The notes under the pieces are model-generated. The model saw only the letters and a list, made by a program, of their open reading frames with translations, had not been told where the DNA came from and did no database searches. Positions 9,036-34,200 of a stretch of DNA of 64,000 bases are shown one piece after another. The stretch lies in NCBI GenBank assembly GCA_964036045.1, contig OZ038378.1, positions 23,487,935 through 23,551,934 on the forward strand, read 5' to 3'. Source of the DNA: Eutreptiella sp. 'Long Island Sound 2002' (lineage: Eukaryota > Euglenozoa > Euglenophyceae > Eutreptiales > Eutreptiaceae). Every line of letters begins with the position of its first letter. Within the stretch, counting starts at the first letter, position 1. The position numbers and the translations under genes were made by a program.

Positions 9036-10217
9036 CGCCACGGACGAGCAACATGGTATGAAGGGACAAACGGGGAGGAACAAAAAGACCAGCGAGGTAA
9101 AGCACAACACAAAAAAAAAAAAAAAAAAAAAAAACCAAGCATACACACGTGACTAGTGGGGTCCAAGTATGTTGCCACGCTACGCTACGTAACCGAGACG
9201 TGCCCACCGCCCACCCGCACGCCCGCTTATGTAGGAGGCGAAAGGGAGCGAAAGGGAACAAAAGGTATGCCGCCGCATGCAAACGAATAGTAGACAAGCC
9301 ACACACCGCCACCAAGAACGCAAGTATGTTACCATGTCGTGCCACGTCGCCAACCGCGGAGTTGCGTGGGTTAGAACACACAAATAGCCATGGAGGGGGA
9401 CACGGGGAGCAAACACACAAATAGCATAGCGCCGGCGAGTGCCGGGTCCCAACAAACACACGTGCACGCACCCATGTTCTCTTCCCCTCACAGGTCCCGA
9501 GGAGAAGCGTATGCTCGTGTCTGCGTCGTCCGGGCGTTAAAGTAGGGTTGTCTTAGACGCTTAGGCAAGTATTGCATCGTGCCGTCGTCACACATAAGCG
9601 AACGCCCGGCAAGGCGGGAGGACTAGGACACATTGAGGTAGTGGGGAAAGAAGCAGGTATGTTGCATGTCACGCCGCGCGTGCGGAACGGGCGACGAGAA
9701 AAGGTAGCGACCAAAGGGGGGTGGAGACAAGACGGGAGCAAGTGGGGCGATAAACCTACGCGCAAGCCGGTCGCACACGCATGTCGCATGACGTACCAGC
9801 CAGCTCGAGGTGCCGTGTCGCGACAAAACCGCCGCCGCCGCACGCTTGTTTACGCACCCTTCTCTCCCTACGCAGGTTCAAAAGAGGAAGCCCGGGCCGA
9901 CAAGGAAAAAGACAGAGACACGCAACAAAGCGGAGGCAGGGAAAAAGTGCATGCCAGGGAGAGGAGTAGAGGAAAGGGTAAAGAGCAACGAAGCCGCGAA
10001 AGGAACAAGGGGTAGCCAGCGAACGAGCAAGGGGCGCACACAGAGGAGGGGACACGGCGGGCACACGGCGAGCACAACACCGCACCGAGACACCGGAGAG
10101 GGGAGCACCGGAGGACCAAGGAAAGAGCAGCACCACGCACCACGACACGCACGGCACAGACACCACACACACCGCACACACCCAACGAACCCCGGCAACC
10201 CACCCGGCAGTGGGCGG
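9036..10217 (+). other. Giant LINE 5' leader with repeated splice-like modules
   Basis: A24 tract at 9111-9134. Quasi-repeats recur with CAAGTATGTT-type cores near 9156, 9320, 9565 and 9652 and an AGGTATGCC near 9261. Pyrimidine tract plus CAG occurs near 9480-9497 (TTCCCCTCACAG) and 9861-9877 (TCTCTCCCTACGCAG). The segment around 9470-9570 is homologous to 35565-35665. Open frames here run into the tandem array and are not convincing genes. Confidence 0.65.
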
Positions 10218-13200
10218 GCAGACGGGAGAGGGACAGCGCCTGACCCCAAGCGCCCCTCACCATGGTGGAAGGCACCCCCCCCGGGGACGCCCTTCCGCCA
10301 CCCCCACAGCGAGCAACGCCGGCCCGCAAGGGCGCACGCTGTGGGGCCGGTGCTGGGCCCCCACACCCACACCTACCGCACCCGGGACACGCGGGTCGAG
10401 GAACCCTGGCTGCACGCTCCGGAGGACGGGCGGCCGGGGGAGGGACAGCGCCTGGCACCAAGCGCCCCTCACAACGGTGGAAGGCAGCCCCCCCCGGGGA
10501 CGCCCTTCCGCCACCCCCACAGCGAGCAACGCCGGCCCGCAAGGGCGCACGCTGTGGGGCCGGTGCTGGGTCCACACGCCCGCATCGACCGCACCCGGGA
10601 CACACGGGTCGCGGAACCCTGGCTGCACGCTCCGGAGGACGAGCGGCCGGGGGAGGGACAGCGCCTGACACCAGGCGCCCCTCACAACGGTGGAAGGCAC
10701 CCCCCCCGGGGACGCCCTTCCGCCACCCCCACAGCGAGCAACGCCGGCCCGCAAGGGCGCACGCTGTGGGGCCGGTGCTGGGCCCCCACGCCCACACCGA
10801 CCGCACCCGGGACACGCGGGTCGCGGAACCCTGGCTGCACGCTCCGGAGGACGGGCGGCCGGGGGAGGGACAGCGCCTGGCACCAAGCGCCCCTCACAAC
10901 GGTGGAAGGCAGCCCCCCCCGGGGACGCCCTTCCGCCACCCCCACAGCGAGCAACGCCGGCCCGCAAGGGCGCACGCTGTGGGGCCGGTGCTGGGTCCAC
11001 ACGCCCGCATCGACCGCACCCGGGGCAGACGGGTCGCGGAACCCTGGCTGCACGCTCCGGCGGACGAGCGGCCGGGGGAGGGGCAGCGCCTGACACCAGG
11101 CGCCCCTCACAACGGTGGAAGGCACCCCCCCGGAGACGCCCTTCCGCCACCCCCACAGCGAGCAACGCCGGCCCGCAAGGGCGCAAGCTGTGGGGCCGGT
11201 GCTGGGTCCACACGCCCGCATCGACCGCACCCGGGACACACGGGTCGCGGAACACTGGCTGCGCGCTCCGGAGGACGAGCAGCCGGGAGAGGGACAGCGC
11301 CTGACACCAGGCGCCCCTCACAACGGTGGAAGGCACCCCCCCCGGGGACGCCCTTCCGCCACCCCCACAGCGAGCAACGCCGGCCCGCAAGGGCGCACGC
11401 TGTGGGGCCGGTGCTGGGTCCACACGCCCGCATCGACCGCACCCGGGACACACGGGTCGCGGAACCCTGGCTGCGCGCTCCGGAGGACGAGCAGCCGGGG
11501 GAGGGACAGCGCCTGACACCAGGCGCCCCTCACAACGGTGGAAGGCACCCCCCCCAGGGACGCCCTTCCGCCACCCCCATAGCGAGCAATGCCAGCCCGC
11601 AAGGGCGCACGCTGTGGGGCCGGTGCTGGGTCCACACGCCCGCATCGACCGCACCCGGGACACACAGGTCGCGGACCCCTAGCTGCACGCTCCGGAGGAC
11701 GAGCGGCCGGGGGAGGGACAGCGCCTGCCACCAGGCGCCCCTCACAACGGTGGAAGGCACCCCCCCCGGGGACGCCCTTCCGCCACCCCCACAGCGAGCA
11801 ACGCCGGCCCGCAAGGGCGCACGCTGTGGGGCTGGTGCTGGGTCCACACGCCCACATCAACCGCGCCCGGGACACGCGGGTCGCGGAACCCTGGCTGCAC
11901 GCTCCAGAGGACGAGCGGCCGGGGGAGGGACAGCGCCTGACACCAGGCGCCCCTCACAACGGTGGAAGGCACCCCCCCCGGGGACGCCCTTCCGCCACCC
12001 CCCCAGCGAGCAACGCCAGCCCGCAAGGGCGCACGCTGTGGGGCCGGTGCTGGGTCCACACGCCCGCATCGACCGCACCCGGGACACACGGGTCGCGGAA
12101 CCCTGGCTGCACGCTCCGGAGGACGAGCGGCCGGGGAAGGGACAGCGCCTGACACCAGGCGCCCCTCACAACGGTGGAAGGCACCCCCCCCGGGGACGCC
12201 CTTCCGCCACCCCCACAGCGAGCAACGCCGGCCCGCAAGGGCGCACGCTGCGGGGCCGGTGCTGGGTCCACACGCCCGCATCGACCGCACCCGGGACACA
12301 CGGGTCGCGGAACCCCGGCTGCACGCTCCAAAGGACGAGCGGCCGGGGGAGGGACAGCGCCTGACGCCAGGCGCCCCTCACAACGGTGGTAGGCACCCCC
12401 CCCGGGGGCGCCCCTCCGCCACCCCCACAGCGAGCAACGCCGGCCCGCAAGGGCGCACGCTGTGGGGCCGGTGCTGGGTCCACACGCCTGCACCGACCGC
12501 GCCCGGGACACGCGGGTCGCGGAACCCTGGCTTCACGCTCCGGAGGACGAGCGGCCGGGGGAGGGACAGCGCCTAACACCAGGCGCCCCTCACAACGGTG
12601 GAAGGCACCCCCCCCGGGGACGCCCTTCCGCCACCCCCACAGCGAGCAACGCCGGCCCGCAAGGGCGCACGCTGTGAGGCCGGTGCTGGGTCCACACGCC
12701 CGCATCGACCGCGCCCGGGACACTCGGGTCACGGAACCCTGGCTGCACGCTCCGGAGGACGAGCGGCCGGGGGAGGGACAGCGCCTGACACCAGGCGCCC
12801 CTCACAACGGTGGAAGGCACCCCCCCGGGGACGCCCTTCCGCCACCCCCACAGCGAACAACGCCGGCCCGCAAGGGCGCACGCCGCGGGACCGGTGCTGG
12901 GTCCACACGCCCGCATCGACCGCGCCCGGGACACTCGGGTCCCGGAACCCTGGCTGCACGCTACGAAGGACAAGCGCGGCTCGGGGAGGGACAGCGCCTG
13001 ACACCAGGCGCCCCTCACAACGGTGGAAGGCACCCCCCCCGGGGACGCCCTTCCGCCACCCCCACAGCGAGCAACGCCGGCGCGCAAGGGCGCACGCTCT
13101 GGGGCCGGTGCTGGGCCCCCACGCCCACACCGACCGCACCCGGGACACACGGGTCGCGGAACCCTGGCTTCACGCTCCGGAGGACGAGCGGCCGGGGAAG

Positions 13201-16200
13201 GGACAGCGCCTGACACCAGGCGCCCCTCACAACGGTCGGAGGCACCCCCCCGGGGACGCCCTCCCGCCACCCCCACAGCGAGCAACGCCGGCCCGCAAGG
13301 GCACACGCTGTGGGGCCGGTGCTGGGTCCACGCCCGCATCGACCGCACCCGGGACACACGAGTCGCGGAACCCTGGCTGCACGCTCCGGAGGACGAGCGG
13401 CCGGGGGAGGGACAGCGCCTGACACCAGGCGCCCCCCACAACGGTGGAAGGCACTCCCCCCGGGGACGCCCTTCCGCCACCCCCACAGCGAGCAACGCCG
13501 GCCCGCAAGGGCGCACGCTGTGGGGCCGGTGCTGGGCCCCCACGCCCACACCGACCGCACCCGGGACACGCGGGTCGCGGAACCCTGGCTGCACGCTCCG
13601 GAGCACGGGCGGCCGGGGGAGGGACAGCGCCTGGCACCAAGCGCCCCTCACAACGGTGGAAGGCAGCCCCCCCCGGGGACGCCCTTCCGCCACCCCCACA
13701 GCGAGCAACGCCGGCCCGCAAGGGCGCACGCTGTGGGGCCGGTGCTGGGTCCACACGCCCGCATCGACCGCACCCGGGGCACACGGGTCGCGGAACCCTA
13801 GCTGCACGCTCCGGAGGACGAGCGGCCGGGGGAGGGGCAGCGCCTGACACCAGGCGCCTCTCACAACGGTGGAAGGCACCCCCCCGGAGACGCCCTTCCG
13901 CCACCCCCACAGCGAGCAACGCCGGCCCGCAAGGGCGCACGCTGTGGGGCCGGTGCTGGGTCCACACGCCCGCATCGACCGCACCCGGGACACACGGGTC
14001 GCGGAACCCTGGCTGCGCGCTCCGGAGGACGAGCAGCCGGGAGAGGGACAGCGCCTGACACCAGGCGCCCCTCACAACGGTGGAAGGCACCCCCCCCGGG
14101 GACGCCCTTCCGCCAGCCCCATAGCGAGCAACGCCAGCCCGCAAGGGCGCACGCTGTGGGGCCGGTGCTGGGTCCACACGCCCGCATCGACCGCACCCGG
14201 GACACGCAGGTCGCGGACCCCTAGCTGCACGCTCCGGAGGACGAGCGGCCGGGGGAGGGACAGCGCCTGACACCAGGCGCCCCTCACAACGGTGGAAGGC
14301 ACCCCCCCCGGGGACGCCCTTCCGCCACCCCCACAGCGAGCAACGCCGGCCCGCAAGGGCGCACGCTGTGGGGCTGGTGCTTGGTCCACACGCCCACATC
14401 AACCGCGCCCGGGACACGCGGGTCGCGGAACCCTGGCTGCACGCTCCAGAGGACGAGCGGCCGGGGGAGGGACAGCGCCTGACACCAGGCGCCCCTCACA
14501 ACGGTGGAAGGCACCCCCCCCGGGGACGCCCTTCCGCCACCCCCACAGCGAGCAACGCCAGCCCGCAAGGGCGCACGCTGTGGGGCCGATGCTGGGTCCA
14601 CACGCCCGCATCGACCGCACCCGGGACACACGAGTCGCGGAACCCTGGCTGCACGCTCCGGAGGACGGGCGGCCGGGGGAGGGACAGCGCCTAACACCAG
14701 GCGCCCCTCACAACGGTAGAAGGCACCCCCCCCCGGAGACGCCCTTCCGCCACCCCCACAGCGAGCAACGCCGGCCCGCAAGGGCGCACGCTGTGGGGCC
14801 GGTGCTGGGTCCACACGCCCGCACCGACCGCACCCGGGACACACGGGTCGCGGAACCCTGGCTGCACGCTCCGGAGGATGAGCGGCCGGGGAAGGGACAG
14901 CGCCTGACACCAGGCGCCCTTCACAACGGTGGAAGGCACCCCCCCCGGGGACGCCCTTCCGCCACCCCCACAGCGAGCAACGCCGGCCCGCAAGGGCGCA
15001 CGCTGCGGGGCCGGTGCTGGGTCCACACGCCCGCATCGACCGCACCCGGGACACACGGGTCGCGGAACCCCGGCTGCACGCTCCAAAGGACGAGCGGCCG
15101 GGGAAGGGACAGCGCCTGACGCCAGGCGCCCCTCACAACGGTGGTAGGCACCCCCCCCGGGGGCGCCCCTCCGCCACCCCCACAGCAAGCAACGCCGGCC
15201 CGCAAGGGCGCACGCTGTGGGGCTGGTGCTGGGTCCACACACCCGCACCGACCGCGCCCGGGACACGCGGGTCGCGGAACCCTGGCTTCACGCTCCGGAG
15301 GACGAGCGGCCGGGGGAGGGACAGCGCCTAACACCAGGCGCCCCTCACAACGGTGGTAGGCACCCCCCCCGGGGACGCCCTTCCGCCACCCCCACAGCGA
15401 GCAACGCCGGCCCGCAAGGGCGCACGCTGTGAGGCCGGTGCTGGGTCCACACGCCCGCATCGACCGCGCCCGGGACACTCGGGTCACGGAACCCTGGCTG
15501 CACGCTCCGGAGGACGAGCGGCCGGGGGAGGGACAGCGCCTGACACCAGGCGCCCCTCACAACGGTGGAAGGCACCCCCCCGGGGACGCCCTTCCGCCAC
15601 CCCCACAGCGAACAACGCCGGCCCGCAAGGGCGCACGCCGTGGGACCGGTGCTGGGTCCACACGCCCGCATCGACCGCGCCCGGGACACTCGGGTCGCGG
15701 AACCCTGGCTGCACGCTACGAAGGACAAGCGCGGCCGGGGGAGGGACAGCGCCTGACACCAGGCGCCCCTCACAACGGTGGAAGGCACCCCCCCCGGGGA
15801 CGCCCTTCCGCCACCCCCACAGCGAGCAACGTCGGCCCGCAAGGGCGCACGCTGTGGGGCCGGTGCTGGGCCCCCACGCCCACACCGACCGCACCCGGGA
15901 CACACGGGTCGCGGAACCCTGGCTGCACGCTCCGGAGGTCGAGCGGCCGGGGAAGGGACAGCGCCTGACACCAGGCGCCCCTCACAACGGTGGAAGGCAC
16001 CCCCCCGGGGACGCCCTCCCGCCACCCCCACAGCGAGCAACGCCGGCCCGCAAGGGCACACGCTGTGGGGCCGGTGCTGGGTCCGCACGTCCGCATCGAC
16101 CGCACCCGGGACACACGGGTCGCGGAACCCTGGCTGCCCGCTCCGGAGGACGGGCGACCAGAAGAGGGACGGCGCCTAACACCGGACGCCCCTCGCAACA

Positions 16201-16250
16201 CTGGAAGGCGCCCCCCCGGGGATGCCCATCCACCGCCCCCACACCGAGCA
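10218..16250 (+). repeat. Tandem array of about 28 monomers of 212 bp
   Basis: The marker ACAACGGTGG (or a close variant) recurs at 10259, 10471, 10684, 10896, 11109, 11320 and on to 15984 and 16195, with steps of 209-213 bp and mostly 212. Each monomer carries a C-run with GGGGACGCCC, a GTGGGGCCGGTGCTGGG stretch and a GGACAGCGCCTGACACC stretch. A higher-order unit of 13 monomers is duplicated: 10684-13437 against 13438-16194, offset 2754 bp. Its position directly upstream of ORF1 resembles promoter monomers of mouse L1. Because 212 is not a multiple of 3, long stop-free frames appear on both strands; I do not call them genes. Confidence 0.95.
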
Positions 16251-16326
16251 ACGCACCAACGCACCAACGCACCAGCCACGGGACATCCACACCCCGCCCC
16301 CTGCTCTTAGACACAGCGACATAGCA

Positions 16327-17394
16327 ATGGCGGAACCCGCGGCACCACGCAAGACACGCCCCCGATCTCCGACGCTGGACGAAGCACACGAGGTCATCAG
16401 GGCGCTGGGACTCAGAGACGGCGAAGGAGACCCCCCACAAGGGGACACGGGCACAGACTCCGACCTGGAGGCATTGCCGGAGCCCCCCACGGGGGGCGCG
16501 CCCGCGGAACCTGCGCCGCCGGCGGGCAGCGTACCCGCGATCTGCCCCGCGTGGAAACGGGGCCATTGCACCGGCGAAGGCTGGTGCCCCAAACAGCACC
16601 CCCAGCCCGATGCCGACGACGGAGCGTTGCCCGAGGTGAAACCCGCGGCCGCACGCGCCGCCCTACGCTACGGGGTGACGCAGGGCTGGATCCTGGATGA
16701 GACCGTGCGCGGCAGCGTGAACATCCAGGAGGCCGTCGACCGCGTCACCCACGCGGGACAGGCGGCAGTGGCCCTGCACACCCGGGGCCGCCACGGTGGA
16801 CCCGCAGAGGGGATCATTGTGGATCCCTCGGGAATGGTGCTGGTCCTGGCGGCGGACATGGTCCGAGGGGTGCTCCACGTGTCCCGCGTGCGGCGGGCGT
16901 GCCCACAGTGGACCATCCAGGTGTACACCCCCCCGCGGGCGTGGCTTTTTTTGACATGGGCGGTGCTCGCCGTCATGTGGCACCTGGCACCAGAGGACGC
17001 CCCCACAGGGACCGCGGAGGACATCGCCCGGGACCTCCACACCTGGCCGGCCGACCAGGAATACCCCTGGCGCAGGCCCCGGGGCGGCCTCCCGGTGGCA
17101 CCAGCGGCAGAGGGGCTCAGCCTCGCGGCAACTCTCCAACGGCACCCCGACAAGCAGGCGCGCCACTTCCTGGAGACGGGCACGGTCCCGGCCGCCCCGC
17201 CAGACTCCGAGTGGCGATGGGACGCAGGGGTGGCGCAACCACTGCCGGGCCCCTGGACCCTCCCGTTGTGGTACTTACCAATGGGCACCTTGGCCTACGC
17301 CACCCAGGCCGTCAAGGGGGCTTTCCCGCAGCCGCCCCTCCCCGGCGTGGCCCTGCTCCGCAGCCTGCAGGCGGGGGCCGCCTGGGTACGGTAG
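16327..17394 (+). CDS. Giant LINE ORF1: CCCH zinc-finger protein
   Basis: 355 codons from the ATG at 16327 (context gcaATGG); an upstream in-frame ATG at 16222 lies in the last repeat monomer and is less likely. The N-terminus is basic and proline-rich. A CCCH finger, C-x7-C-x5-C-x3-H (CPAWKRGHC...WCPKQH), begins at residue 73 (nt 16543). CCCH fingers bind RNA in other proteins, so a nucleic-acid-binding role like LINE ORF1p is a reasonable inference. The rest has no fold I recognise. It ends at TAG 17392-17394 and ORF2 continues in the same frame. Confidence 0.75.
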   Translation: MAEPAAPRKTRPRSPTLDEAHEVIRALGLRDGEGDPPQGDTGTDSDLEALPEPPTGGAPAEPAPPAGSVPAICPAWKRGHCTGEGWCPKQHPQPDADDGALPEVKPAAARAALRYGVTQGWILDETVRGSVNIQEAVDRVTHAGQAAVALHTRGRHGGPAEGIIVDPSGMVLVLAADMVRGVLHVSRVRRACPQWTIQVYTPPRAWLFLTWAVLAVMWHLAPEDAPTGTAEDIARDLHTWPADQEYPWRRPRGGLPVAPAAEGLSLAATLQRHPDKQARHFLETGTVPAAPPDSEWRWDAGVAQPLPGPWTLPLWYLPMGTLAYATQAVKGAFPQPPLPGVALLRSLQAGAAWVR

Positions 17395-17430
17395 AAGGAA
17401 GGGAAGGGGCGCTCGAGCCCCTATTTCCCC

Positions 17431-23000: not shown

Positions 23001-23403
23001 CCACCACCGCGCAACCTCCGTGCGCGCGGAGGTCACCAAGATGTTCTGGGAGATAGCCGGCGCGCACGGAATATGCCCCGAGGTGCACTACCCCGTCCCG
23101 GAGTTCGCAACTCTGGCGGGGGGCGACTGGGTCCACCGCATACCCCGGGCCCTGTCCGCCCTGGGAGTGGGGATGTACAACCCCATCGCGTGCCCCAGGG
23201 CGGCTCATGTCCAACTACAGTCCCCGCCGGGCAAAATCGTCACGCTGCGCACCGCCAAGCTGCGGCACCGCGACACGTGCCGCCTGACGGTGCCACACGC
23301 AAGGGCCGTGGCATGGGCACCACGGGCCACGCCACCCGATCCCCGACAACGACGATCCGTGGCCGACGGCGGTGCGGGAGTGCCTCAACCAATGCGCCGA
23401 TGA
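20023..23403 (+). CDS. Giant LINE ORF3: APE-type endonuclease and reverse transcriptase
   Basis: About 1126 codons after the ORF2 stop. The APE endonuclease set is complete: Asn in SWNLRNG (nt 20068), Glu in LQETG (20212), GDTN (20584-20595) and SDH (20821-20829). The RT core has YRPIAL (21943), FDARKAFDT (22141), GVRQGNPESPLL (22312) and catalytic YIDD (22435-22446). This is the enzyme of target-primed reverse transcription. The catalytic Asn lies before any in-frame ATG (the first is at 20173), so translation must enter by read-through of TGA 20020-20022 or by non-AUG or reinitiation events. RNase H and the zinc knuckle are not here but in ORF4, in the +1 frame. Confidence 0.93.
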   Translation, partial: LQEDTTGNALWLLSWNLRNGLVPPDRSLRDTLRRRRGPAACTDKEHLITGMLPQEGGFAIMLQETGIATRAQEMHVAAALRDKGYTAYFSSRLAETGATSTSRGGGLLTAVSSKYVAEHEVLSFTEIVPGKAAALEIRTDGGGLTLINVHGSQAGCSPWAGRAAFWADIQMYATARSLGGRHPVVIAGDTNIYMDVPANPATEHFRAGWEACGFRRAAAGGEEDMTPTLHPSQHRVDTFLVNEPLLPWSLRESVWARGMAHPQVVGSDHLPVRLALPGLLSAAGRAAMPTPYSHTEGRLLPYDAEAAPVQHCLWAAVTAAQDEPSLAPWLGPAEQHDYGSMPAAAVDKVFEHLHATHDALARVVGRRQPSPAGTDPAEGDLPESGKQLQAAVLRYDTLAARAPAAYQADAARHGIRSEAALRLTEELQSVSPGFRPTTQGQLQEELERQAAALEEDIRQLRALLAADRKRAIKDFWRRHAPDIAQRWKAVRGAIEVEAPGPSGLWNVRVPNTQTLLTEAHDVMFAVRAFWRELYDKRPVDLPGFQAVLGRHVPRVPEGAWTQVQQYSMQDLKSALDKADGMAPGPNHVEARFIKALPAPVQWLLVHSYRAILRGAPPPMHWRDAHIWLSPKVPGSARLDDYRPIALGQLDMKLLTGPLTQRITEVLTRHGVVSDWQQGALPGSNTGPPLFMAQRQLQRGRPNYVFSFDARKAFDTAPHGALHLILRHLSVPPDVIDLLLFLHTCARLRIVTAHGLTQPVYMLRGVRQGNPESPLLYALLLEPLLRAQGHRLRPPGGAEHGLIQAYIDDLLVVAHTLQHFVEGVEAVAAYLGMMGMELNPRKCAMATTEGVPGLQLRLCPHLENPWYWVPAADSVPYLGLQLQPDGEFSLQRKHRLRLAAVHDWCLNTLAPPKVVQDVILAILGGVTQYVAPFIADDSDTARHLDHITVQVAKDRARYAFDASRDSLQDDRTLGLTRVPTRCRQAAVALVGTLVHHRATSVRAEVTKMFWEIAGAHGICPEVHYPVPEFATLAGGDWVHRIPRALSALGVGMYNPIACPRAAHVQLQSPPGKIVTLRTAKLRHRDTCRLTVPHARAVAWAPRATPPDPRQRRSVADGGAGVPQPMRR

Positions 23404-26400
23404 ACACCTCCATTATTGCCGCCATGAGCAAGGGCCCACCAACCACCCCGGGTGGCGCGATGCCCTGGCCCACCTCTTCCACACCACCGGCACACGGGAC
23501 CCCCGCCTGAGACTCGTCCACCCCACGAGGGCTAAGCAGGACGCCCACACCGGCCCACGGGTGACCCCGGACGGCCTGCACCTCCACGTCGGGGGCTACC
23601 GCCGCCGGGACGGCCTGTCCCCCCCTACGCAGGGGGCGGCGTACCACCCGCCAGCGGCCCTCATGTACATCCTCCGCGACGTACTCGCGGAAAGCGAGCA
23701 CCAAGAGCCCAACGCGGACGTGGCGTGGCCAGAGCCCTTACGTCCCCGGCCCCACGCGCCGACGCCGTTGTGGCTGGTGACCACAGACGACCAATGCACC
23801 CAAGCGGCGGGACAAGCGCAGCTCCGGGCCGAGTGGGTGATAGTGCAAGTGGGGGCAGGCCAGCCCGAACCCCGTGGGCTCCCCCGTGGCACCGCCCTAC
23901 TGGTGGCTACGGGGGTGCCGCACGACCCACACATGGCGGTGCACGCGCTGGAGGACCGTCCGGAGGACACAGGACACTTGGTGGTACACCAGCGCGGGGG
24001 CCCGGCGTGGCTCAAGGAACATGTGACGTCGCTACGGTCCTGGGCAAGCACGGTCGCCGGAGCGGAGATCCGGCTGCACGACCACCCGGCGATCAGCCCA
24101 GGCGACACCAGGGCGCTGAGCGTGGACCAACTGACCCACAGCCACCCCGACGTCCGGTGGCACTCCACCGACCTCAACGCGGGGTGGCTCAGCCCCACCG
24201 GATACTACTGGATCCCGGAGGCCTGGGGACACACCTCCTCTGACGCGTCCGGGGGCGGACCCTGCAAACACGCCACCAGCGTCGCTCTCGCCGCCGACCT
24301 CACCCGCACGTGGGCGGTGGCCATCTCGGGCACGGTGCCCGACGGAGAGGGGGTGGCCGCCTCCCTCCCCCTACATTACGGTGCACACAGACCATGGGTC
24401 CACACGGTGGACGCCGAAGTCATCCCCCACCTCCTGCGGCACGCAGATCGCGAGCGAACCACGGGGGTCCCCGCGGGCGCAGCGAAGGTGGTCAACCAGA
24501 TGCCCCTGAGGTGGCTCCGGGACGGCCTGTGCGCGCGGGGGCAACACGCCGGGCACCCGTTCTGGTACGTCCGAGCCACCTCGCACCACAGTGACGCCCT
24601 ACTGCACAAGGCGGACTGGGCGGCGTCCAAGGACACCGTCTTGCAGAACACGCCCCCGGACCCTGGCCACGCCCAACTCATCGTCGCCGGCCGTGACGGC
24701 CATCTCGGTCTACGGCCCCCCACGATGCGGGTGCTCGGCGAGGTCGCGCAACGGGCGCAGACGGACCATGCGCTGACGCACCGGGGACACACACCTCTGG
24801 GCGCGGCCCACGCCACGGCCTACGTCCACGCCCGGGACCTCACCGCGGCGGCCACCAACCGCCGGGCGCTGCGGGCCCGAGACGGCCACACGCGGGTGCA
24901 GCGCAGGCTCGGCGTCCGGAAGGAGCGGCTCTCCGGCGTCGCCATCGTCCCGCAACCGTGCCTTTTCTGCGGCGGCCCGGAAGAGACCCCGGTGCACATG
25001 CACGTGGGCTGCACCCACTCGCGGCTCCTCTGGCCCCACTACCGCCAGGCGGTACACGAGGCAGCCCGCCACCTCCCACCCGGGGACAAGGCCCTGTGGG
25101 TGGCCTCGTGGTGCTCCGCAGGCGCCACGTGGACGGAGGTGTTCTGCTCCGGACTGGTGCCCGAGGACGCGGAGGCGCAGCTCCGCGCCATAACCCGATA
25201 CGACCCGCTGGGAGGGACCTCGGTGGACGACTTCCTCCACCACATGCTCCGGCTGGGGGACTTCGCGTGGGAGCTTCGCAACCACCAGCTGGAGCAACTC
25301 CTCCACGACCCCCTAAGCGCGGCGGCCCGGGCGCACCGGTGGCTCACTGCGGCGGAGGGCGACCACCCTCCCCCTCCCCCGCGCCCTGACAAGGACTTCG
25401 TAGCCTCCCTCCGTGTTGTGAATGGCACTCTGGAGTGCCCACTCCAAGAGAGCCCCCACCCATATCAGGACCTGCCGGGGGGGTTCTCGAGGCACCTGCA
25501 AGACGCCCTTTTCCCACCATGGATCATCGGGCGCGGCTCCATGACCGCATGGGAGGCGCGCATCGTGGGGGAGGAGTGGGCGCGGGAGTGGGGCCGGTGG
25601 TGCGCCGCCACGCGCGCCCCGGAGACCCCTGCGCAACGATACGCCGCCATCCTGCTCCGGGGGTGGGGGCCCGACACCAGGCCGAGACCCACCATGGTCC
25701 GCGGGGCGGGACCTGACCACCCGTGGGACGCGGCGACGGGGGAATGGCTGCAGGCGGCCCCGGGGCCGCAAACGGGATGGACTGGGGACGTATCCTCACT
25801 CGTCAGGACGCCCGTCCCGCCCCGCATCGTCCTTCACACCGCCAACGTGCTCCGGGCCACGGAGATACGCACGTGGGGACACGCTGCGGCCACCGTCCGG
25901 TGGCACCCCCCAGAGGACGGGGCCACCCAACTCACCGTGGCGCACTTCAAAGCGGGGGGGCCGGTATACGACGACGCCCTGTCCCGGCTGGGCGACACCC
26001 AGGGGCCCTTACTCCTCATGCTCCCCACCGGTATCGCAGCCGCGCTGCGCCAGGAGCTGGACGGCTGCGAAGGGCTGCGAGTGGGGTGGGAGGCAGTCGC
26101 GGACGGCACCCTGCTGGCCCTCCTCCACAGAGACACCGCGAACGGGTGCCAATGGGACGCGCTGACGCCCCACCTCACCGGGCGCCACGTGTACATGGCG
26201 AGCCCCCCCCAGGGGCACCCCCGCCCGGCGTGGGACGACCTCATCGCCGCCTTCCACGACCACGGGATCCTCCCCGGCGACACGTGGCAGGAGGTCCAGC
26301 GGAAGACGCTTGGCAAGGACTACCGGCGCCGCGTCCGCGCCCGCTTGCTGGAGATCCGGGACCCCCTCCGACAGAGGTGGGACGACCTCTGGCTCCGCCA

Positions 26401-26719
26401 TCTCGACCCTTGGTCGCCGCCCTCCCACCTCCCACACACCTGCCGACTCTGCGGAGAGTGTGACACGGTGTCCTCCGCAGCAGCGACAGGCGCCAACAGG
26501 TGCGAGCGGTGCACCCAGGTAGCCGCGTGCCCCTGGCCCGAACCTCCCGCAGGTCCGCGCAGGCGCACAGAGGAGGAGGCCTTGCGCCGGCGCATCGAGG
26601 GGGCACACACCCCCTCGCACGAACAGGCGGGCCCCGCGGGCGCTGCCCTTCTGTGGATCCACGTGCACCTGCGGGACCCCACATCTGTTGCGCACCTGTC
26701 GCACGTGTTCGCCCCCTAA
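23288..26719 (+). CDS. Giant LINE ORF4: RNase H, zinc knuckle and a long unknown C-terminus
   Basis: The frame is open from 23288 and overlaps the ORF3 end (23403) by 116 nt, one frame ahead; no ATG lies near its start. RNase H acidic residues fall at SSDASGGG (Asp nt 24242), a Glu in DGEGVAA (24347), TVDAEV (Asp 24410) and HKADWAA (Asp 24614). Their spacings of 35, 56 and 124 residues from the first Asp are close to those of E. coli RNase HI. A C-x2-C-x8-H-x4-C knuckle starts at 24959, as in LINE RT tails. About 480 residues of unknown function follow, then a C-x2-C...C-x2-C ribbon from 26441. The frame ends at TAA 26717-26719. Confidence 0.85.
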   Translation, partial: RCHTQGPWHGHHGPRHPIPDNDDPWPTAVRECLNQCADEHLHYCRHEQGPTNHPGWRDALAHLFHTTGTRDPRLRLVHPTRAKQDAHTGPRVTPDGLHLHVGGYRRRDGLSPPTQGAAYHPPAALMYILRDVLAESEHQEPNADVAWPEPLRPRPHAPTPLWLVTTDDQCTQAAGQAQLRAEWVIVQVGAGQPEPRGLPRGTALLVATGVPHDPHMAVHALEDRPEDTGHLVVHQRGGPAWLKEHVTSLRSWASTVAGAEIRLHDHPAISPGDTRALSVDQLTHSHPDVRWHSTDLNAGWLSPTGYYWIPEAWGHTSSDASGGGPCKHATSVALAADLTRTWAVAISGTVPDGEGVAASLPLHYGAHRPWVHTVDAEVIPHLLRHADRERTTGVPAGAAKVVNQMPLRWLRDGLCARGQHAGHPFWYVRATSHHSDALLHKADWAASKDTVLQNTPPDPGHAQLIVAGRDGHLGLRPPTMRVLGEVAQRAQTDHALTHRGHTPLGAAHATAYVHARDLTAAATNRRALRARDGHTRVQRRLGVRKERLSGVAIVPQPCLFCGGPEETPVHMHVGCTHSRLLWPHYRQAVHEAARHLPPGDKALWVASWCSAGATWTEVFCSGLVPEDAEAQLRAITRYDPLGGTSVDDFLHHMLRLGDFAWELRNHQLEQLLHDPLSAAARAHRWLTAAEGDHPPPPPRPDKDFVASLRVVNGTLECPLQESPHPYQDLPGGFSRHLQDALFPPWIIGRGSMTAWEARIVGEEWAREWGRWCAATRAPETPAQRYAAILLRGWGPDTRPRPTMVRGAGPDHPWDAATGEWLQAAPGPQTGWTGDVSSLVRTPVPPRIVLHTANVLRATEIRTWGHAAATVRWHPPEDGATQLTVAHFKAGGPVYDDALSRLGDTQGPLLLMLPTGIAAALRQELDGCEGLRVGWEAVADGTLLALLHRDTANGCQWDALTPHLTGRHVYMASPPQGHPRPAWDDLIAAFHDHGILPGDTWQEVQRKTLGKDYRRRVRARLLEIRDPLRQRWDDLWLRHLDPWSPPSHLPHTCRLCGECDTVSSAAATGANRCERCTQVAACPWPEPPAGPRRRTEEEALRRRIEGAHTPSHEQAGPAGAALLWIHVHLRDPTSVAHLSHVFAP

Positions 26720-26758
26720 CCCCCACCCGCCGCCGCCCTTTGCAGAGCCCGCAGCACC

Positions 26759-27988
26759 ATGCCACGCCGACGGGGTGATGGGCCGGGGCACACCAGGGCC
26801 CGCCGCAGAGCGCAGGAGGCGGCCGTCCGGGGCCTGGTGGCGGAAGCGGTGGCGGAGGCAAAAGCAGCGCACGCTGCCGCACGGTGCGACCTGGAGGGCA
26901 GTGCGAGGGCCTTCCTCAACGGGACCGCCCTCCCGGCCGTCCGCGCCCTGAATGGAGCGGGGGCCCCTACGCTGCTCCCGGCAATGCACCGGATCGTGAA
27001 CGCCGTCCGGCCGGGGCTCATCAGCCCGGAAGCGGCCCTCTACGGGCACTGGATGGAGTGGCGCCAGTCCAATCGGTCGGGCCGGCCCCTGTCCATGGGG
27101 GACACCCTCCGGCTGACGGGAGCGGGGTCTGCCATCTCCCTCCGCAGTAGCGCCCCAGCCCTGCTGCACGCCCTCAGGACGCGCTACCCCGGGCACGCGG
27201 CCCCGTACCTGAACCAGGCGCGGGCCACGTACCCGGGGGGAGTGTCCGAGCTGGATGCGGCGCTCCACCTTCTACACCCGCCGGACGAGGACCTGGAGGT
27301 GGGCGAGGTCACGGTGTTCGTGGAAGGCGCGGACGAGGCGTCCACCCGCCCCCGGCCGACCAACCCGGTGTATGACGGCACCGGGCCTACCCCCCCGTAC
27401 GCCGTCGTCTACGAGGCGTTCCCCAGGGAGCCCACTTGGTGCCCCGCCCTCCCACCGGCGACGCACGCGCCCCGCGGCTGGGCTAATCCAGACCTGTCCC
27501 CCCCCCTCTCCAGGACCAGGGGTGCCCACCACAGGGGGCAGGTCCTCTGGCAAGAGTGCCCTGGCACCCCCCTCCTCCTCCTCGTCGTCGCGACCCGCGG
27601 GGGCCCGGGGCGGATCCTGGGGATCACCCCCACCCACCTCTATGGGGCCACACCCGTACCCCGCCCCCCCCTCCCGGCGCCCGCGGCGCGGGACGGAGTA
27701 CACACCTTCCTGCGCACACAGGAGGTCACCGCCGTTACGGGGGTCCACCTGGTGCGGCTGCCCCCGACACCGCTCGACGACCCCCGGGGGCCCAGGGCCC
27801 TGAGCCCCGCCCCAGACTGGGAGCTGTGGCGCGACGCGTGGGCCGCGTGGCTCCCCCGCCTCCCCTCCCAATGCCGGTGGATGGCCGCGGACCCCCGGCC
27901 GTGCGGGGCTGACGCCACAGCCGGCCCCCCACTTCCTCCCCCCCCCCCCGCAGAGCACCACACGGCACTGCCCACGGCACGGCACTGA
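26759..27988 (+). CDS. Giant LINE ORF5: unknown 409-aa protein
   Basis: ATG at 26759 in good context (agcaccATGC), 39 nt after ORF4 and in the same frame. The N-terminus is Arg-rich and helical (RRRAQEAAVRGLVAEAVAEAK), followed by a globular-looking part and a Pro-rich C-terminus. The sequence before the ATG, CCGCCGCCCTTTGCAG, resembles a splice acceptor. Its TGA (27986-27988) overlaps the ORF6 ATG by one base. I recognise no family; ORFs downstream of the RT module are not usual in LINEs. Confidence 0.6.
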   Translation: MPRRRGDGPGHTRARRRAQEAAVRGLVAEAVAEAKAAHAAARCDLEGSARAFLNGTALPAVRALNGAGAPTLLPAMHRIVNAVRPGLISPEAALYGHWMEWRQSNRSGRPLSMGDTLRLTGAGSAISLRSSAPALLHALRTRYPGHAAPYLNQARATYPGGVSELDAALHLLHPPDEDLEVGEVTVFVEGADEASTRPRPTNPVYDGTGPTPPYAVVYEAFPREPTWCPALPPATHAPRGWANPDLSPPLSRTRGAHHRGQVLWQECPGTPLLLLVVATRGGPGRILGITPTHLYGATPVPRPPLPAPAARDGVHTFLRTQEVTAVTGVHLVRLPPTPLDDPRGPRALSPAPDWELWRDAWAAWLPRLPSQCRWMAADPRPCGADATAGPPLPPPPPAEHHTALPTARH

Positions 27989-30243
27989 TGCACCAGGAGG
28001 TAGTGGGAAGGGCGCGCCTGCCACCACGCATGCCTACCAGAGTAACAGTGATGGCAGACTCCGATGGGTCCCTCGGGCGGGACGACCGCCACCACCGCCG
28101 GTCCCGCTCCCGCTCCCCCGTCTCCTCCCCAGAGTGGACGGGGGAGACCCTCGCGGAGCGCGAGGAGCGGAGGCTGGCGGAGGCGGCGGTGGTCGGGCCG
28201 CCGCCGCCGGCCCGGGAACCTGGGCCAGCCGAGACGGCCGCCCCCGCCGCCCAAGCGGCCAGCCCCGCCGCCCCGCCCCGCCCTGACGCGCAGGAGGCGG
28301 AGACCGCGGCGAGCCACGCCGCGGCCCCTGCCGCGGCCCCCGGCACGCCGCTGGCAAGGGGGGCAGCCCCGGCGCAGGAGCCAGACGCGTCGCCGAGGGC
28401 TGCCGCAGCCGCGCAGGAGAGCAAGCAGGGCGCAAGAGGGGTTGCGACGGACCCCGCACGGGCCGTGGGCGACTCGCCGGCGGCCGCCGCGGCAGCAGAG
28501 AAGACCGAGGAGGGTGTGCGAGGGTCTGCGACCGCGGCCACGGGCGCCTCGTCGGCGGCCGCCGCGGCAGCGAAGGAGAGTGCGGAGGGCGCGAGAGGGG
28601 CTGCGGCCCCTGGCACGCCGCGCAAGCGGGGGAAGAACCCCGCACGGGCCGCGGACGCCTCGCCGGCGGCCGCCGCAGCAGCAGCAGTGGGCAGGGAGAG
28701 CGCGAAGTACCGCGCCCAGGCCAACCCCGCCCACACCCACACCAGCCCCCCCAAGCCGTACCCCCCCAAGCCCTTCCCCCCGGGGCGGGAGCGGCACGTC
28801 CGCCCCCCGACGCGCGAGCGCTCGCCGCCGGGCGTCACGCTGCCGCAACTGCAAAGGCAGCGGGACGCCCGGCGAGTGGTCCAGGAAGGGCGCAGCGGCG
28901 AGGGGGAGGGGAGCGGCGGACGGCGTGACAGGCAGGGGGCAGGGGAGGGGTCAGGGCACGGGAAGGGCGCGCAGGGGCGCGGGCAGGGAGCCCAGGTGCA
29001 GGGGGCGGAGCGAGGGGAGGTGACAGAGCGAGCGGGCTGGGGCGTGGTGGACGAGAGGCGGGACCCGCGACACGGGCAGGGGGTCGGGGAGGGGCCAGGG
29101 CACGGGAAGGGTGCTCAGGGGCGCGGGAAGGGTACCCAGGCGCAGGGGGCAGGACAAGGGGGGATGGGAGAGCGAGCGGGCCAGGGCGTGGGGGACGAGA
29201 GGCGGGACCCGCAACACGGGCACGGGACCGGAAAGGGGCCCAAGGGCAAGGGCAAGGGCAAGGGCAAGGGCCCCAAGGGACAGGAGGGACGGGGCATGGG
29301 AGCCCAGGGGGGGGGGCGGGGCGAGGGGAGGGGGGCAGAGGGCGGAGCGCCCCCGCAGCCGGACGTGCAGCCGCCGAGGTGCATCCCCCCCGGCATCCAA
29401 CAGATGCCGGCACACCACACCTACCACCACCACAACCACCACCACCACCACCTCTACAACATCGACCCTGACACCGGCGAGCTCGTCCCCCCCCAACCCC
29501 CACGACACCAGCACCAGCAAGCCCCCCCCGCGCCGAGGGCGGAGCCGGCGCGGATGGCCTCGGCGGAGGGGGGACGGGGCGTGGCATCGGCGCCGCAGGT
29601 GCAGGAGCAGCGAGGGGGGCCGGCACGGGGGGCGGAGGAGAGCCGGCCGTGGGACGTGGACTGGGGCGCAGTCCCGGACCCGCTGGGGGGGGAGACCCTC
29701 CCCCTGGTGGGGGAAGTGTACGGGTGGTTGTGCTGGGCCAACCAGGGGACCTCCAGGAGGTCGCGGAACCGGGCCTTCGATGCCGTGCTCCTCCGGAGGG
29801 ACGGAGGAAACCGAGAGGCACCCCCGGGGGGTTGGGCGGCCCCAGAGGACCACAAGAGGGTCCTCAGGTCAGTGATCCGGGCGGCGTGGCCAGACAGGGA
29901 TCCGACGTGGCCGGCCTTCCTAGAGGGGGGAGCGGTGCTCCGCATCACGGATGCGGACGCCAACAACTGGCTCCCCCGGGCTTTGCGTAGCGCCCTCGCC
30001 CACTGGCGCTACCGCCGGCACAACCCGCCGCCGCCGCAGCCCCAGCCCCCACACAAGCGGCGGCGCAAGGCGAAGGCCCAGACGGCGGGTACGGGAGGGT
30101 TGGGGGGGGGGATGGGCCCCCTGACCCACGCCCCCCCCACGGTATGGCACGACGTGCGGGGGCGCGCCGCCTCCCGCGGGAGGGAGTGCGGGGGCGACAA
30201 GCGCGGGGAGGAACCGGCTGCCCCGCAACCTGCTAACCACTGA
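27988..30243 (+). CDS. Giant LINE ORF6: low-complexity Gly/Arg- and His-rich protein
   Basis: 751 codons from the ATG that overlaps the ORF5 stop (TGATG at 27986-27990); later ATGs at 28030 and 28051 are alternatives. The N-terminal third is Ala/Pro-rich with repeated AAAAA...EGARG blocks. The middle has Gly/Gln/Arg repeats of the GHGKGAQGRG kind and a GKGKGKGKG run, then a His cluster near 29410-29455. A more ordered segment (about 29650-30010) contains DVDWGAVPDPLGGE and WPDRDPTWPAFLEGG, and a basic HKRRRKAK near the C-terminus could be a nuclear signal. RNA-binding condensate-type behaviour is possible, but no domain is recognised. Confidence 0.55.
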   Translation: MHQEVVGRARLPPRMPTRVTVMADSDGSLGRDDRHHRRSRSRSPVSSPEWTGETLAEREERRLAEAAVVGPPPPAREPGPAETAAPAAQAASPAAPPRPDAQEAETAASHAAAPAAAPGTPLARGAAPAQEPDASPRAAAAAQESKQGARGVATDPARAVGDSPAAAAAAEKTEEGVRGSATAATGASSAAAAAAKESAEGARGAAAPGTPRKRGKNPARAADASPAAAAAAAVGRESAKYRAQANPAHTHTSPPKPYPPKPFPPGRERHVRPPTRERSPPGVTLPQLQRQRDARRVVQEGRSGEGEGSGGRRDRQGAGEGSGHGKGAQGRGQGAQVQGAERGEVTERAGWGVVDERRDPRHGQGVGEGPGHGKGAQGRGKGTQAQGAGQGGMGERAGQGVGDERRDPQHGHGTGKGPKGKGKGKGKGPKGQEGRGMGAQGGGRGEGRGAEGGAPPQPDVQPPRCIPPGIQQMPAHHTYHHHNHHHHHLYNIDPDTGELVPPQPPRHQHQQAPPAPRAEPARMASAEGGRGVASAPQVQEQRGGPARGAEESRPWDVDWGAVPDPLGGETLPLVGEVYGWLCWANQGTSRRSRNRAFDAVLLRRDGGNREAPPGGWAAPEDHKRVLRSVIRAAWPDRDPTWPAFLEGGAVLRITDADANNWLPRALRSALAHWRYRRHNPPPPQPQPPHKRRRKAKAQTAGTGGLGGGMGPLTHAPPTVWHDVRGRAASRGRECGGDKRGEEPAAPQPANH

Positions 30244-31283
30244 CCGCTAACGCCCACGGCCACCCCCGGCCGGCCCGCGCCGCGCGGCAACGGCCGGGGA
30301 GGTGAGGGCCCCGGCGAGGGCCTGCGCGGGCATCCAGCTCTCGATAGGGGGGGCGGGTGAAGGGCGCGACCCCCTGGCCGATGGCTGGCCCCCGGGACCA
30401 GGGCCGCCATGCCGCCCCCGCCCCCCCCCCCCCACGGCCGGCGAGAGGCATCGTCAGAGGGCCAAAGGGCCCCCCCCAACCCCCCCCCCCCCCCCCGCAC
30501 AGACCCGGGGGCGGGCGAGGAGGCGGCCCCCCCACCCCCCCCCCCCCGCACCCACCACAGCAGGGGAGCCACAGGCGCGGCCCTCCGCCCCCCCAGGGCC
30601 GGGGGGGCGCCCCCCCCTCAGGGGGAACGGCGGCGCAATGCGGGCAACGGCGGCTGGGCCTGCTCCCGCGAACCCACACCGGCGTGCCGGAGCAACGCGC
30701 ACGACGGAGCAGGAAGGAGGCCGCGCCCCACATGACCCTCCCGTAACCACAGCCCGCTCCGAGGTGACAGAGGGGGGGTATCATGTCAGATGGGGCCCCC
30801 AGGGAGGCGGCCCACGGGCCGCCCCTCACCCCCCCCACCCCGGGGCGGCACTTCAGCCCCGACCGCAAGCGCGCGCCGGAAGGGAGCGCACCGGCGACAC
30901 GGAGAGAGCCAGGAAGGAGTACCACAGGCCGCCGCCTGGAACGAGAGCAGGGAGGCCGCGGCGCGACACCCCCCCCCCCCCCCCGCCCCCCCACCGGCCC
31001 GCCAGCCGCAGGGGCCCCGGCCCCCACCCCCCGAGGCAGAAGGGACGGACCCCCCCGCCCGAGAGGGGAGCCGGAGTGTGACCCGCCCCCACGCCCCAGC
31101 CGCCGGCTCCAATGGGGGCCGCGAAGAGCAAGTGGCCCCACGCCTGCGCACCGGGACGCCGCGCAGATCGTGCCCAGAGAAGCCGGGTAGGCGCGAACCG
31201 GAATGGTATGGGTGGCCACGCCCCCCATGGACAGCACGACACCAAGGGACGCCCGCTTTGTTGCCTACCCAGGGAAAGCATCC
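30226..31283 (+). repeat. Giant LINE 3' region, first copy of a 1-kb tandem duplication
   Basis: Begins CCGCAACCTGCTAACCACTGACCGC. Contains long C runs (near 30420-30550 and 30970), GGGGCGGCACTTCAGCCCCGACCGC near 30842 and ends near GACGCCCGCTTTGTTGCCTACCCAGGG. The same landmarks recur in the same order in 31284-32280. There is no convincing gene. Confidence 0.85.
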
Positions 31284-32280
31284 CCGCAACCCGCTAACCA
31301 CTGACCGCTGACCCTCACGGCCACCCCCGGCCGGCCAGCGCCGCGCGGCAACGGCCGGGAGATGAGGGGCCCCAGAGAGGGACTGCGTGAGGATCCAGCT
31401 CTCGGTAGAGGGGGGCGGGGGAAGGGCGCGACCCCCCTGGCCGATGGCTGGCCCCCGGGGCCGGGACCGCCAAGCCGCCCTCCCCCCCCCCCCCTTTTTT
31501 TTTGGCCGACAGGGGGCATCGCCAGGGGACCGAAGGACCCCCCCCACTCCCCCCCCCCCCCCCCCCCCTCCCACACAGGCCCGAGAGCGAGCGGGGTGGC
31601 GCCCCCCCCCCCCCCCCCCGCACCCACCCCAGCTGGGGAGCCACAGGCGCGGCCCTCCGCCCCCCCAGGGCCGGGGGGGCGCCCCCACCCACAGGAGGAA
31701 CGGCGACACGGTAAGGGCAACGGCGGCTGGACCTGCCCCCACGAACCCACACCGGCGTGCCGGAGCAACGCGCACAACGGAACACGAAGGAGGCCGCGCC
31801 CCGCGTGACCCTCCCGTGACCACAGCCCACTCCGAGGGGACAGAGGGGGGGTTTTGCAGGTCAGCCGGGGCCCCCAGGGGAGCGGTCCACGGGCCGCCCC
31901 TCACCCCCCCCCGCCCCGGGGCGGCACTTCAGCCCCGACCGCACGCGCGCGCCGGAGGGGAGAGCCAGAAAGGGGTACCGCAGGCCGCCGCCCGGAACGA
32001 GAGCGGGGAGGCCGCAGCGCGACACCCCCCCCGAGGCAAGGGGGATGGGCCCCCCCCACCCGAGAGGGCAGCCGGAGTGTGACCCGCCCCCCCGCTCTGT
32101 CCGCCGGCCCACAAGGGGGCCGCGAAGAACAAGCGGGCCCACGCCTGCGCACCGGGACGCCGCACAGATCGTACCCGGAGAGGCTGGGTGAACACGAACC
32201 GGAGTGGTATGGGGGGCCACGCCCCCCATGGACAGCGCAACGCCAGTGACGCCCGCTTTGTTGCCTGCCCAGGGAAGGCA
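31284..32280 (+). repeat. Giant LINE 3' region, second copy of the 1-kb tandem duplication
   Basis: Diverged by substitutions and indels from 30226-31283, mostly in the lengths of the C runs (31480-31620). It shares the TAACCACTGACCGCTGACC start and the GACGCCCGCTTTGTTGCCTGCCC end. Confidence 0.85.
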
Positions 32281-32850: not shown

Positions 32851-32912
32851 GATCCCGGGGTTCGAACCAGCTCCTTCGCGGCGCGCGCCTGGTGCGCTAC
32901 CTCCGCGGCGGC
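32851..32912 (-). ncRNA. Second tRNA-related segment, opposite strand
   Basis: On the minus strand TAGCGCACCAGG (32899-32888) matches box A and GGTTCGAACCC (32868-32858) matches box B. The spacing is slightly short for a full tRNA. It faces the first segment head to tail within the 3' region. Confidence 0.4.
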
Positions 32913-34151
32913 TGCCTTCAGAGATACACCGGCACCCGGGTCACAGAACAAACGCGCCCGCAACCCCCTCCCCCTGTGCTACGAGTAAGCCCGCGGTAGG
33001 GCTGCTCTGCTGGGCCATGAACCGGGACATTGGAGCACCACTCCAGCCACGGTCACCCCAACCCCCCCACGCATCCCGCAGGGCGAAGCTCCGTGCGCAT
33101 CAGGCTCGTCATGAGAATCCGGCGGGCCGGCGCCTGGACACCAAGACGACACCTCTCTCCCCCCCCGCAAGAACAGAGCGGGGCCCCCACAACCGCACGC
33201 CCGCAACGCAGACCCCGACAGCCCACCTAGTGGACGGGCAGAGGAGGGAAGAGGAACGCAAGACCCAGAACGCCCCACGCGACGGACGAAGGCACCCCCC
33301 CGGGGACGCCCAGCCGCCGCCCCCGCAACCCCAAGCCAAGTAGGGGGGAACCGGGACCGGACCGCCCCCCCCCAAGCACGCCAGACAGAGCACGGGACCG
33401 GGGCAGGACACGCGGAGGGGCACGGACCACATGGAACGGCCCTACCAGCGCCCAGTGCCGGGACCACGCGAGATGCGCGCGCCACACCACCCAGCGGGGA
33501 GCGGACACCGCGAGAGCGCGAGCGCACACACACCAAAAGGACACGCGGGGACCACCAGAAGGGCAACCGGACCGAGCGCGCGGAACGCACAGACCACATG
33601 GAATGGCGTACCAGCGAGCGAGGAAAAGGGACACCCGGACGGGACGGCCCGCCACACGCAACGCGGGATACGCGGGGCGGGAAGGGGGAAGAAGGGGAGA
33701 CACAACACCAGGTACCGGCCCGAACCCCCCCGAACCGGCCGCGAGCGCCGCGCACACACAGACGGGACACTGCACCCGCCAAGGCAGTAGTGGCGCACAG
33801 CGCCACGCCCCAACCCCTAGGCTAGGCAGCCTCCGCGCCAGCCCAAGGGGGTCCCACTGGCGACAAGCCAGTAGCACGGGCCCGGCGGCGCCGGTGCCCC
33901 GGGCGACCACGCATTAGGGGGGCGACGCAGTGGGTAAGCGCCCGCGGCCACGGCTGCGAATTGATGCACTGACCGGGGAGTGGCGAAACGGGGACGCCGG
34001 GGAAGGACGGGGCTCCGAGCTCTGTGAACCCGGGGGACTCCGCCACCAGGCAGGAGGTGCGTCTTGGAGGGCCCCCCACTAGGACCCGGTGGGGAGGATA
34101 TCACCTGGCCCGACCAGGTGGCCCCCCGGGGCCGAAAAGCGTCTAGTACCC

Positions 34152-34184
34152 GCAAAATCAAACCTCAAACCTCAAACCTCAAAC
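34152..34184 (+). repeat. Heptanucleotide 3' tail of the giant LINE
   Basis: GCAAAATC followed by three full AACCTCA units and AACC, ending directly at the target duplication. Many LINEs end in short tandem tails instead of poly(A). Confidence 0.85.
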
Positions 34185-34200
34185 CTGAATTCAGAAACAG
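34185..34200 (+). repeat. Right 16-bp target-site duplication of the giant LINE
   Basis: Exact copy of 9020-9035 (CTGAATTCAGAAACAG). The following TTAAAAGTAGAACC continues the host repeat as at 62541. Confidence 0.95.

Follow-up and report, generated by a model that had tools for sequence, protein, structure and literature searches.

Long interspersed nuclear elements (LINEs) usually measure roughly 6–12 kb, their size being commonly attributed to how far target-primed reverse transcription can run and to its stopping early. LINEs of the apurinic/apyrimidinic endonuclease (APE) type, such as those like I, R1, Jockey and Tad, encode an endonuclease (EN) followed by a reverse transcriptase (RT) and a C-terminal zinc motif; mouse L1 carries, before open reading frame (ORF) 1, a 5′ monomer array of ~200-bp tandem units whose number varies between copies. 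According to the accessible parts of the respective sources, the Drosophila telomeric LINE repeats (HeT-A/TART/TAHRE) measure six to twelve kb (PMC5537684), and terminons, endonuclease-deficient Penelope-type elements at rotifer telomeres, reach up to 40 kb (PMC6431247). The latter source, a 2019 review of giant transposons, covers giant long terminal repeat (LTR) elements, Penelope-type terminons, Polintons and others, with no giant LINE named in its accessible part (PMC6431247); similarly, no LINE larger than the one described below appears in the accessible parts of PMC8232201 or PMC8969392. Here, a stretch of 64,000 nucleotides from Eutreptiella sp. 'Long Island Sound 2002' (contig OZ038378.1, positions 23,487,935 to 23,551,934; hereafter the window) is analysed, in which positions 9036–34184 are occupied by an element that we regard, with a probability of about 0.9, as one copy of an APE-type non-LTR retrotransposon that was active recently; its full-length units measure 21.9–26.5 kb in six copies. 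This assignment follows from the EN-RT protein in combination with common ends, target duplications of variable length, truncation at the 5′ end, a tail of simple repeats and the lack of LTRs. The genome, whose contig C1 contains the window, comprises 2.28 Gb, and other copies were sought throughout it.

As shown in Table 1, the element in the window is a single insertion between exact 16-bp direct repeats (CTGAATTCAGAAACAG), at 9020–9035 and 34185–34200, and a paralogue of the target at 62525–62540 joins both flanks without the insert, with flank matches of 95% over 65 bp and 98% over 283 bp. An earlier reading of this DNA, made from its letters alone (the sequence-only reading), had described a complete, exceptionally long LINE that went in as a single insertion with 16-bp duplications, and an intact paralogous empty site elsewhere in the window. 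The duplications and the empty site are as described, and insertion of an exceptionally long LINE in one event is well supported, one full-length relative being longer still (26.5 kb); the description as complete has to be given up, because other copies run 811 bp further upstream to one start, and the window copy is therefore 5′-truncated. Another copy (L084) is inserted near the target site of the window copy, within another copy of the same host repeat. The guanine–cytosine (GC) content of the element is 72.6%, against 53.4% in the remainder of the window; the CpG ratio outside the element is 0.71 at 53% GC, and two other flanks have 52% GC with a CpG ratio of 0.61 and 55% GC with a CpG ratio of 0.38.

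Copies were drawn from the best 40 scored candidates per probe, out of 1961 and 2789 first-look candidates, which are not copy counts. With a 1-kb probe from the ORF region, all 40 scored matches among these best candidates were 99–100% identical across the full probe; a 5′ leader probe gave 48 matches from its best 40 candidates, mostly at 97–99% and six at 91–93%. Such near-identity suggests recent activity. Six copies extend beyond the 5′ end of the window copy and agree with one another over 600 bp, and three of them, when followed further upstream, proved to have one and the same start, GTCGCGCGATCGCAGCAG, at a distance of 811 bp from the first base of the window copy. This start is present in 7/11 copies examined around it and in 12/20 further leader-bearing copies; with the window copy and C27 counted in, this makes 19 of 33 (33 of the 40 listed, the other seven being mostly more diverged); departures from the motif amount to one mismatch in C4a, one in L052 and two, including the first base, in L060. 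The remaining eight of the 20 comprise five without a match and three that end at +13, +34 and +64, and copy C27 diverges from the others ~200 bp upstream. The 3′ end consists of GTCTAGTACCCGCAAAA followed by TCAAACC-type units, which are altered in L085, and is common to 25 of 31 copies tested, namely the window copy and five of the first copies, two of five further ones and 17 of 20 others. The short-repeat tail proposed earlier is thus present, with 4.1 TCAAACC units in the window, and 5′ truncation with a fixed 3′ end, a hallmark of LINEs, is found in this family. Folding of the 3′-most 200 nt is no better than that of shuffled sequences (z −0.14), and Rfam and tRNA searches gave no match.

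Six copies (C20a, C5, C4a, C18, C20b and C4b) were fetched along their length as adjacent pieces. In five of the six, leader, array, ORF regions, duplicated 3′ block and 3′ end follow in identical order, with an identity to the window of 98–99% in most segments, 97–99% in ORF3 and 95–98% in the duplicated 3′ block; C18 is without ~330 bp at the ORF2/ORF3 border. In C4b (L026/L028), ORF2 is expanded by ~12 kb, perhaps through a secondary insertion; this copy was fetched only as far as the RT region of ORF2. The sequence-only reading had named two things to look for: copies with coincident ends and their own target duplications, both of which were found, and, as evidence to the contrary, unit-wise loss of the array, of its ORF5–6 or of the 3′ region; here, five of six copies proved to be one colinear unit, and C4b was followed in part. 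Flanking sequence differs from copy to copy, and with distinct flanks of independent copies a misassembly at the window locus becomes unimportant for the family. It is hardly credible that the structure is an assembly artefact or the product of nested insertions placed by chance between matching 16-bp repeats: the array is hard to assemble and the window holds several other retroelements, but copies on many contigs with different flanks share the start (19/33) and the 3′ end (25/31), the order is the same in the five colinear copies, and five copies have duplications of their own. Two copies lie on C11 near 3.42 and 3.45 Mb, ~37 kb apart and on opposite strands. Among the 40 places found with the ORF probe, one, on C17, lies within 40 kb of the contig start, distances having been computed for that one only.

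Both junctions were read in seven copies, six of which show duplications of variable length, 14–17 bp: 16 bp in the window and, in full-length copies, 17 bp in C20a, 14 bp in C5, 17 bp in C4a, 16 bp in C8 and 15 bp in C15. As a control, among 42 mismatched pairs of flanks the longest match is 8 bp and the mean 5.9. In C20a, the first six of the 17 duplicated bases are tail-like, so that the true length may be only 11 bp. In these full-length copies, unshared filler of 5 (C20a), 29 (C5), 18 (C4a), 25 (C8) and 18 nt (C15) separates the duplication from the first base of the element, and some of these fillers hold internal short repeats; the truncated window copy has no filler, and the CAG at the end of its flank may also belong to the element. 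The duplicated target starts with C in all six (three CT, two CCC, one CA), matching CTC/CC of the tail, which suggests pairing between primer and tail. At 16 further 3′ junctions, the sequence goes on with T in 12 and has C at the following base in 12, as the tail itself would. The insertion site of C15 (L042/L043), CCCATCC, resembles that of C4a and appears to lie in sequence akin to the final part of the element's own array.

The insertion may be pictured as follows. RNA would be transcribed from one fixed start site; the ORF2 endonuclease would nick the bottom strand at targets whose top strand starts with C, in many cases CT or CCC; base pairing of the primer end with CUC/CC of the repeat tail would follow, and the RT would copy the whole RNA in place; the second strand would then join, leaving a duplication of 14–17 bp. 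The five full-length copies with clear duplications would have been joined via 5–29 nt of unshared filler, and copying of the window element would have stopped early, with joining without filler and a possible 3-base overlap. Since several near-identical full-length copies carry their own target duplications, very long copies evidently insert as single units, and since the full-length insertions are intact, the full RNA may have been copied in one RT pass.

From the first base to the tail motif, the full-length copies measure 21,864 (C5), 23,771 (C4a), 23,896 (C18), 24,006 (C20a), 24,462 (C8) and 26,493 bp (C15), and their layout comprises a leader of ~2 kb, a variable 212-bp array, ORF1, ORF2, ORF3, a 3′ region of ~4 kb and a (TCAAACC)n tail. 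No long terminal repeats were found in a self-comparison of the window or in a comparison of the first 811 bp of three full-length copies with the window. Estimated from segment coordinates, the array holds about 28.5 units in the window, 19.5 in C20a, 9.5 in C5, 18.5 in C4a, 20.5 in C18, 24.5 in C20b and 16.5 in C4b. The array of the window contains a run of ~13 units twice, in the same order and offset by 12–13 units; the two runs are 96–100% identical, compared with a unit average of 92%, so this array grew by block duplication. By analogy with the monomers of mouse L1, the 212-bp units likely act as monomers of a 5′ untranslated region with promoter activity. C18 (upstream piece L031) is itself inserted in a GC-rich 208-bp tandem array, which has ~70% likeness to that of the element.

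The six ORFs of the sequence-only reading turn out to be three broken genes, each intact in some other copy; in the window, ORF1 has an in-frame stop, and ORF2 and ORF3 have frame breaks. ORF1 is open in 4/7 copies (C20a, C18, C20b and C4b), ORF2 in 2/6 (C4a and C20b) and ORF3 in 1/6 (C4a). Intact forms of ORF1 and ORF3 are supported by public protein clusters at 90% clustering, one of 439 members at 95% identity for the 1231-aa ORF1 and one of 171 members at 94% identity for the 1104-aa ORF3, whose members may belong to the same or related species or to several assemblies; ORF3 relatives at 54–96% identity also exist. The ratio of amino-acid-changing to silent differences (pN/pS) was computed against a reference copy, with C4b used for ORF1 and the leader only and C18 excluded for ORF3, whose start is deleted there. 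In the coding frame, pN/pS is 0.38 for ORF1 and 0.47 for ORF2, while the other frames of both give 0.93–1.66; the control values are 0.75–0.93 in the leader and 0.57–1.41 in the 3′ region. Amino-acid change is thus reduced in ORF1 and ORF2, which look selected, with uneven constraint along their length (0.61, 0.32 and 0.31 in successive windows of ORF1; 0.19 to 0.73 in ORF2). ORF3 read in frame gives 0.83, 0.33 and 0.15 in its first part and about 0.4–0.8 in its second half, where constraint is weak. A coding reading of 30544–32043 in the 3′ region, based on a codon-position-like skew among copies in one forward frame, was rejected, as this frame contains stops and the skew emerged from many tests.

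These features also bear on the origin of the unit. At a small number of source loci, a conventional LINE of 7–10 kb with ORF1 and ORF2 could have picked up a 5′ satellite array together with a chance downstream segment (ORF3 and 3′ region); the giant form would then be confined to one subfamily. Such a history agrees with the satellite-like character and variable length of the array, with the location of one copy in a 208-bp tandem array that resembles its own at 70%, and with the duplicated block and the array-unit-like stretch in the 3′ region, but it is considered unlikely: among copies chosen by internal or leader probe, a choice that was no systematic search for short forms, no relative of smaller size turned up and five of six fetched lengthwise hold the whole unit; 17/20 further internal-probe copies reach the common 3′ end where it is predicted; and the 1104-aa frame of ORF3 has 171 cluster members, besides relatives at 54–96% identity. 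Moreover, a capture would concern the origin of the unit and not its present nature as a non-LTR retrotransposon.

In ORF2, the APE endonuclease and the YIDD-type RT noted earlier are recovered as matches to PF03372 (E 4e-7) and PF00078 (E 5e-23), with the YIDD motif seen in the translation, and a weak zinc-binding match follows below the cut-off. In a comparison of the RT with PDB sequences, 7 of 10 matches are named R2 or LINE-1 ORF2 and three generically reverse transcriptase; a group II intron RT model gives the element's RT 29.7 of 300 bits, far below the cut-off. RNase H, also proposed earlier, gave no match after the RT in Pfam (E ≤ 10), PHROGs (E ≤ 1) or a PDB profile search; its acidic motifs are suggestive by eye only, structure prediction of this part (346 aa, 17 sequences) was unusable at a predicted local distance difference test (pLDDT) score of 29, and the motif reading is possible but unproven. 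ORF1 and ORF3 have no supported match to any known domain in Pfam, NCBIfam, PHROGs or PDB. By eye only, ORF1 shows one CCCH-like and one C2H2-like zinc-finger motif, and prediction from a window piece of it (863 aa, 25 sequences) reached an unusable pLDDT of 30. Part of ORF1 looks to the eye like ubiquitin-protease boxes, a reading that was abandoned because it had no match in Pfam, NCBIfam, PHROGs or PDB, and the PDB rows for ORF3, at E 0.07–0.9, fall on a poly-histidine region and adjoining low-complexity parts. The length and the extra ORFs recall terminons, Ogre or Burro elements as presented in the accessible part of PMC6431247, and machinery other than target-primed reverse transcription, be it LTR/integrase, a Penelope-type terminon or a DNA transposon, was therefore considered. 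It is very improbable, given the APE endonuclease and LINE-like RT, the variable-length duplications, the 5′ truncation, the simple-repeat tail and the lack of LTRs; in addition, no Pfam match to integrase, transposase, GIY-YIG or PolB was found among the element ORFs scanned.

Several observations weigh against a recently active LINE copied as one long unit. The start is missing from 14/33 leader-bearing copies and the 3′ end from its predicted place in 6/31. C18, full-length, sits in a tandem array and has no clear duplication, its longest match of 8 bp being no longer than that of the best mismatched pair. The duplications of C5, likewise within a tandem array, and of C4a and C15, surrounded by repeat-like DNA, are weaker evidence, which leaves C20a, C8 and the window with the cleanest ones. 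All three ORFs are open together in 0/6 copies. The pN/pS of 0.57 in one frame of the presumably non-coding 3′ region is close to the 0.47 of ORF2, and the whole of ORF3 gives 1.06, a value due to the shifting of frames among copies. Furthermore, single-pass copying is indistinguishable here from, for example, template switching within the array.

Table 1. Features of the element and of its target sites in the window.
Feature	Position	Strand	Remark
5′ target-site duplication copy, CTGAATTCAGAAACAG	9020..9035	+	final 3 bases CAG could also be element
Inserted element	9036..34184	+	5′-truncated copy, without ~811 bp of full-length copies
5′ leader, inner part	9036..10222	+	full-length copies have ~811 bp more in front
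Tandem array, 28.5 units of 212 bp	10223..16254	+	
ORF1; intact copies encode 1231 aa, or 1266 aa if begun at upstream ATG 16222	16327..20022	+	in-frame stop here at 17392–17394
ORF2, 2181 aa in intact copies, EN-RT-long C-terminal part	20173..26719	+	frame broken after RT, giving two ORFs in the sequence-only reading
APE-type endonuclease domain PF03372, E 4e-7	20197..20829	+	
Reverse transcriptase domain PF00078, E 5e-23	21934..22665	+	YIDD motif in translation
Weak zinc-binding-in-RT match PF13966, E 0.04	24902..25033	+	below cut-off
ORF3, 1104 aa in intact copy	26759..30075	+	window end approximate; frame broken near 27.96 kb, giving ORF5 and ORF6 of the sequence-only reading
3′ region, ~1-kb imperfect direct duplication	30221..32280	+	30221–31280 / 31282–32280, 80%
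Stretch like 212-bp array unit	33185..33327	+	74–84%
(TCAAACC)n 3′ tail, 4.1 units	34158..34186	+	last two bases overlap 3′ duplication copy
3′ target-site duplication copy	34185..34200	+	
Empty (uninterrupted) paralogous site	62525..62540	+	

Other repeats surround the element in the window. A gypsy-type LTR retrotransposon with integrase and chromodomain occupies 37292–50522, its 2.37-kb LTRs (37292–39661 and 48149–50522) being 98% identical, and two more gypsy-type elements lie on opposite strands at 28–3900 and 50899–55090, each adjoining an ORF with a weak Dam methylase profile match below the cut-off. Beside the empty paralogous site, a 65-bp minisatellite of 9.4 copies is found at 61878–62487.

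With six full-length copies of 21.9–26.5 kb, five of them with clear duplications, the usual size limit of LINEs can be exceeded about twofold. A literature search, with Repbase and most subscription papers and preprints outside its scope, so that an earlier entry is possible, found no LINE this long, and to our knowledge the element is about twice the length of the longest LINE. We lean, by a narrow margin, towards regarding it as the first giant LINE, in which RNAs of up to about 26.5 kb would be copied in one target-primed event, enabled by its own ORF1 and a new third ORF. Limits on LINE size, the reach of the RT and the roles of accessory ORFs thereby become directly testable, and the element's RT would be of interest as a possibly very processive enzyme.

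Compared with known systems, the unusual features are the length, the large third ORF after ORF2 and the long internal array. The element resembles APE-type LINEs in its EN-RT order, the weak zf-RVT match after the RT, variable duplications, 5′ truncation and the simple-repeat tail, but it is two to four times longer, with an ORF2 of 2181 aa, a third ORF of 1104 aa after it and an internal 212-bp array. It shares with mouse L1 the tandem ~200-bp units ahead of ORF1 and their differing number among copies; unlike in mouse L1, ~2 kb of the element precede the array, which extends over up to 6 kb, and the tail is not poly(A). Similarly, long untranslated regions are shared with HeT-A/TART/TAHRE, which are among the longest LINEs known, but the present element is not telomere-restricted, is about twice as long and has three ORFs. 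Terminons are likewise giant retroelements with extra ORFs and mostly 5′-truncated copies, whereas this element has an APE endonuclease and target-duplicated insertions away from contig ends. Finally, it differs from LTR retrotransposons such as Ogre and Burro in having neither LTRs nor an integrase match.

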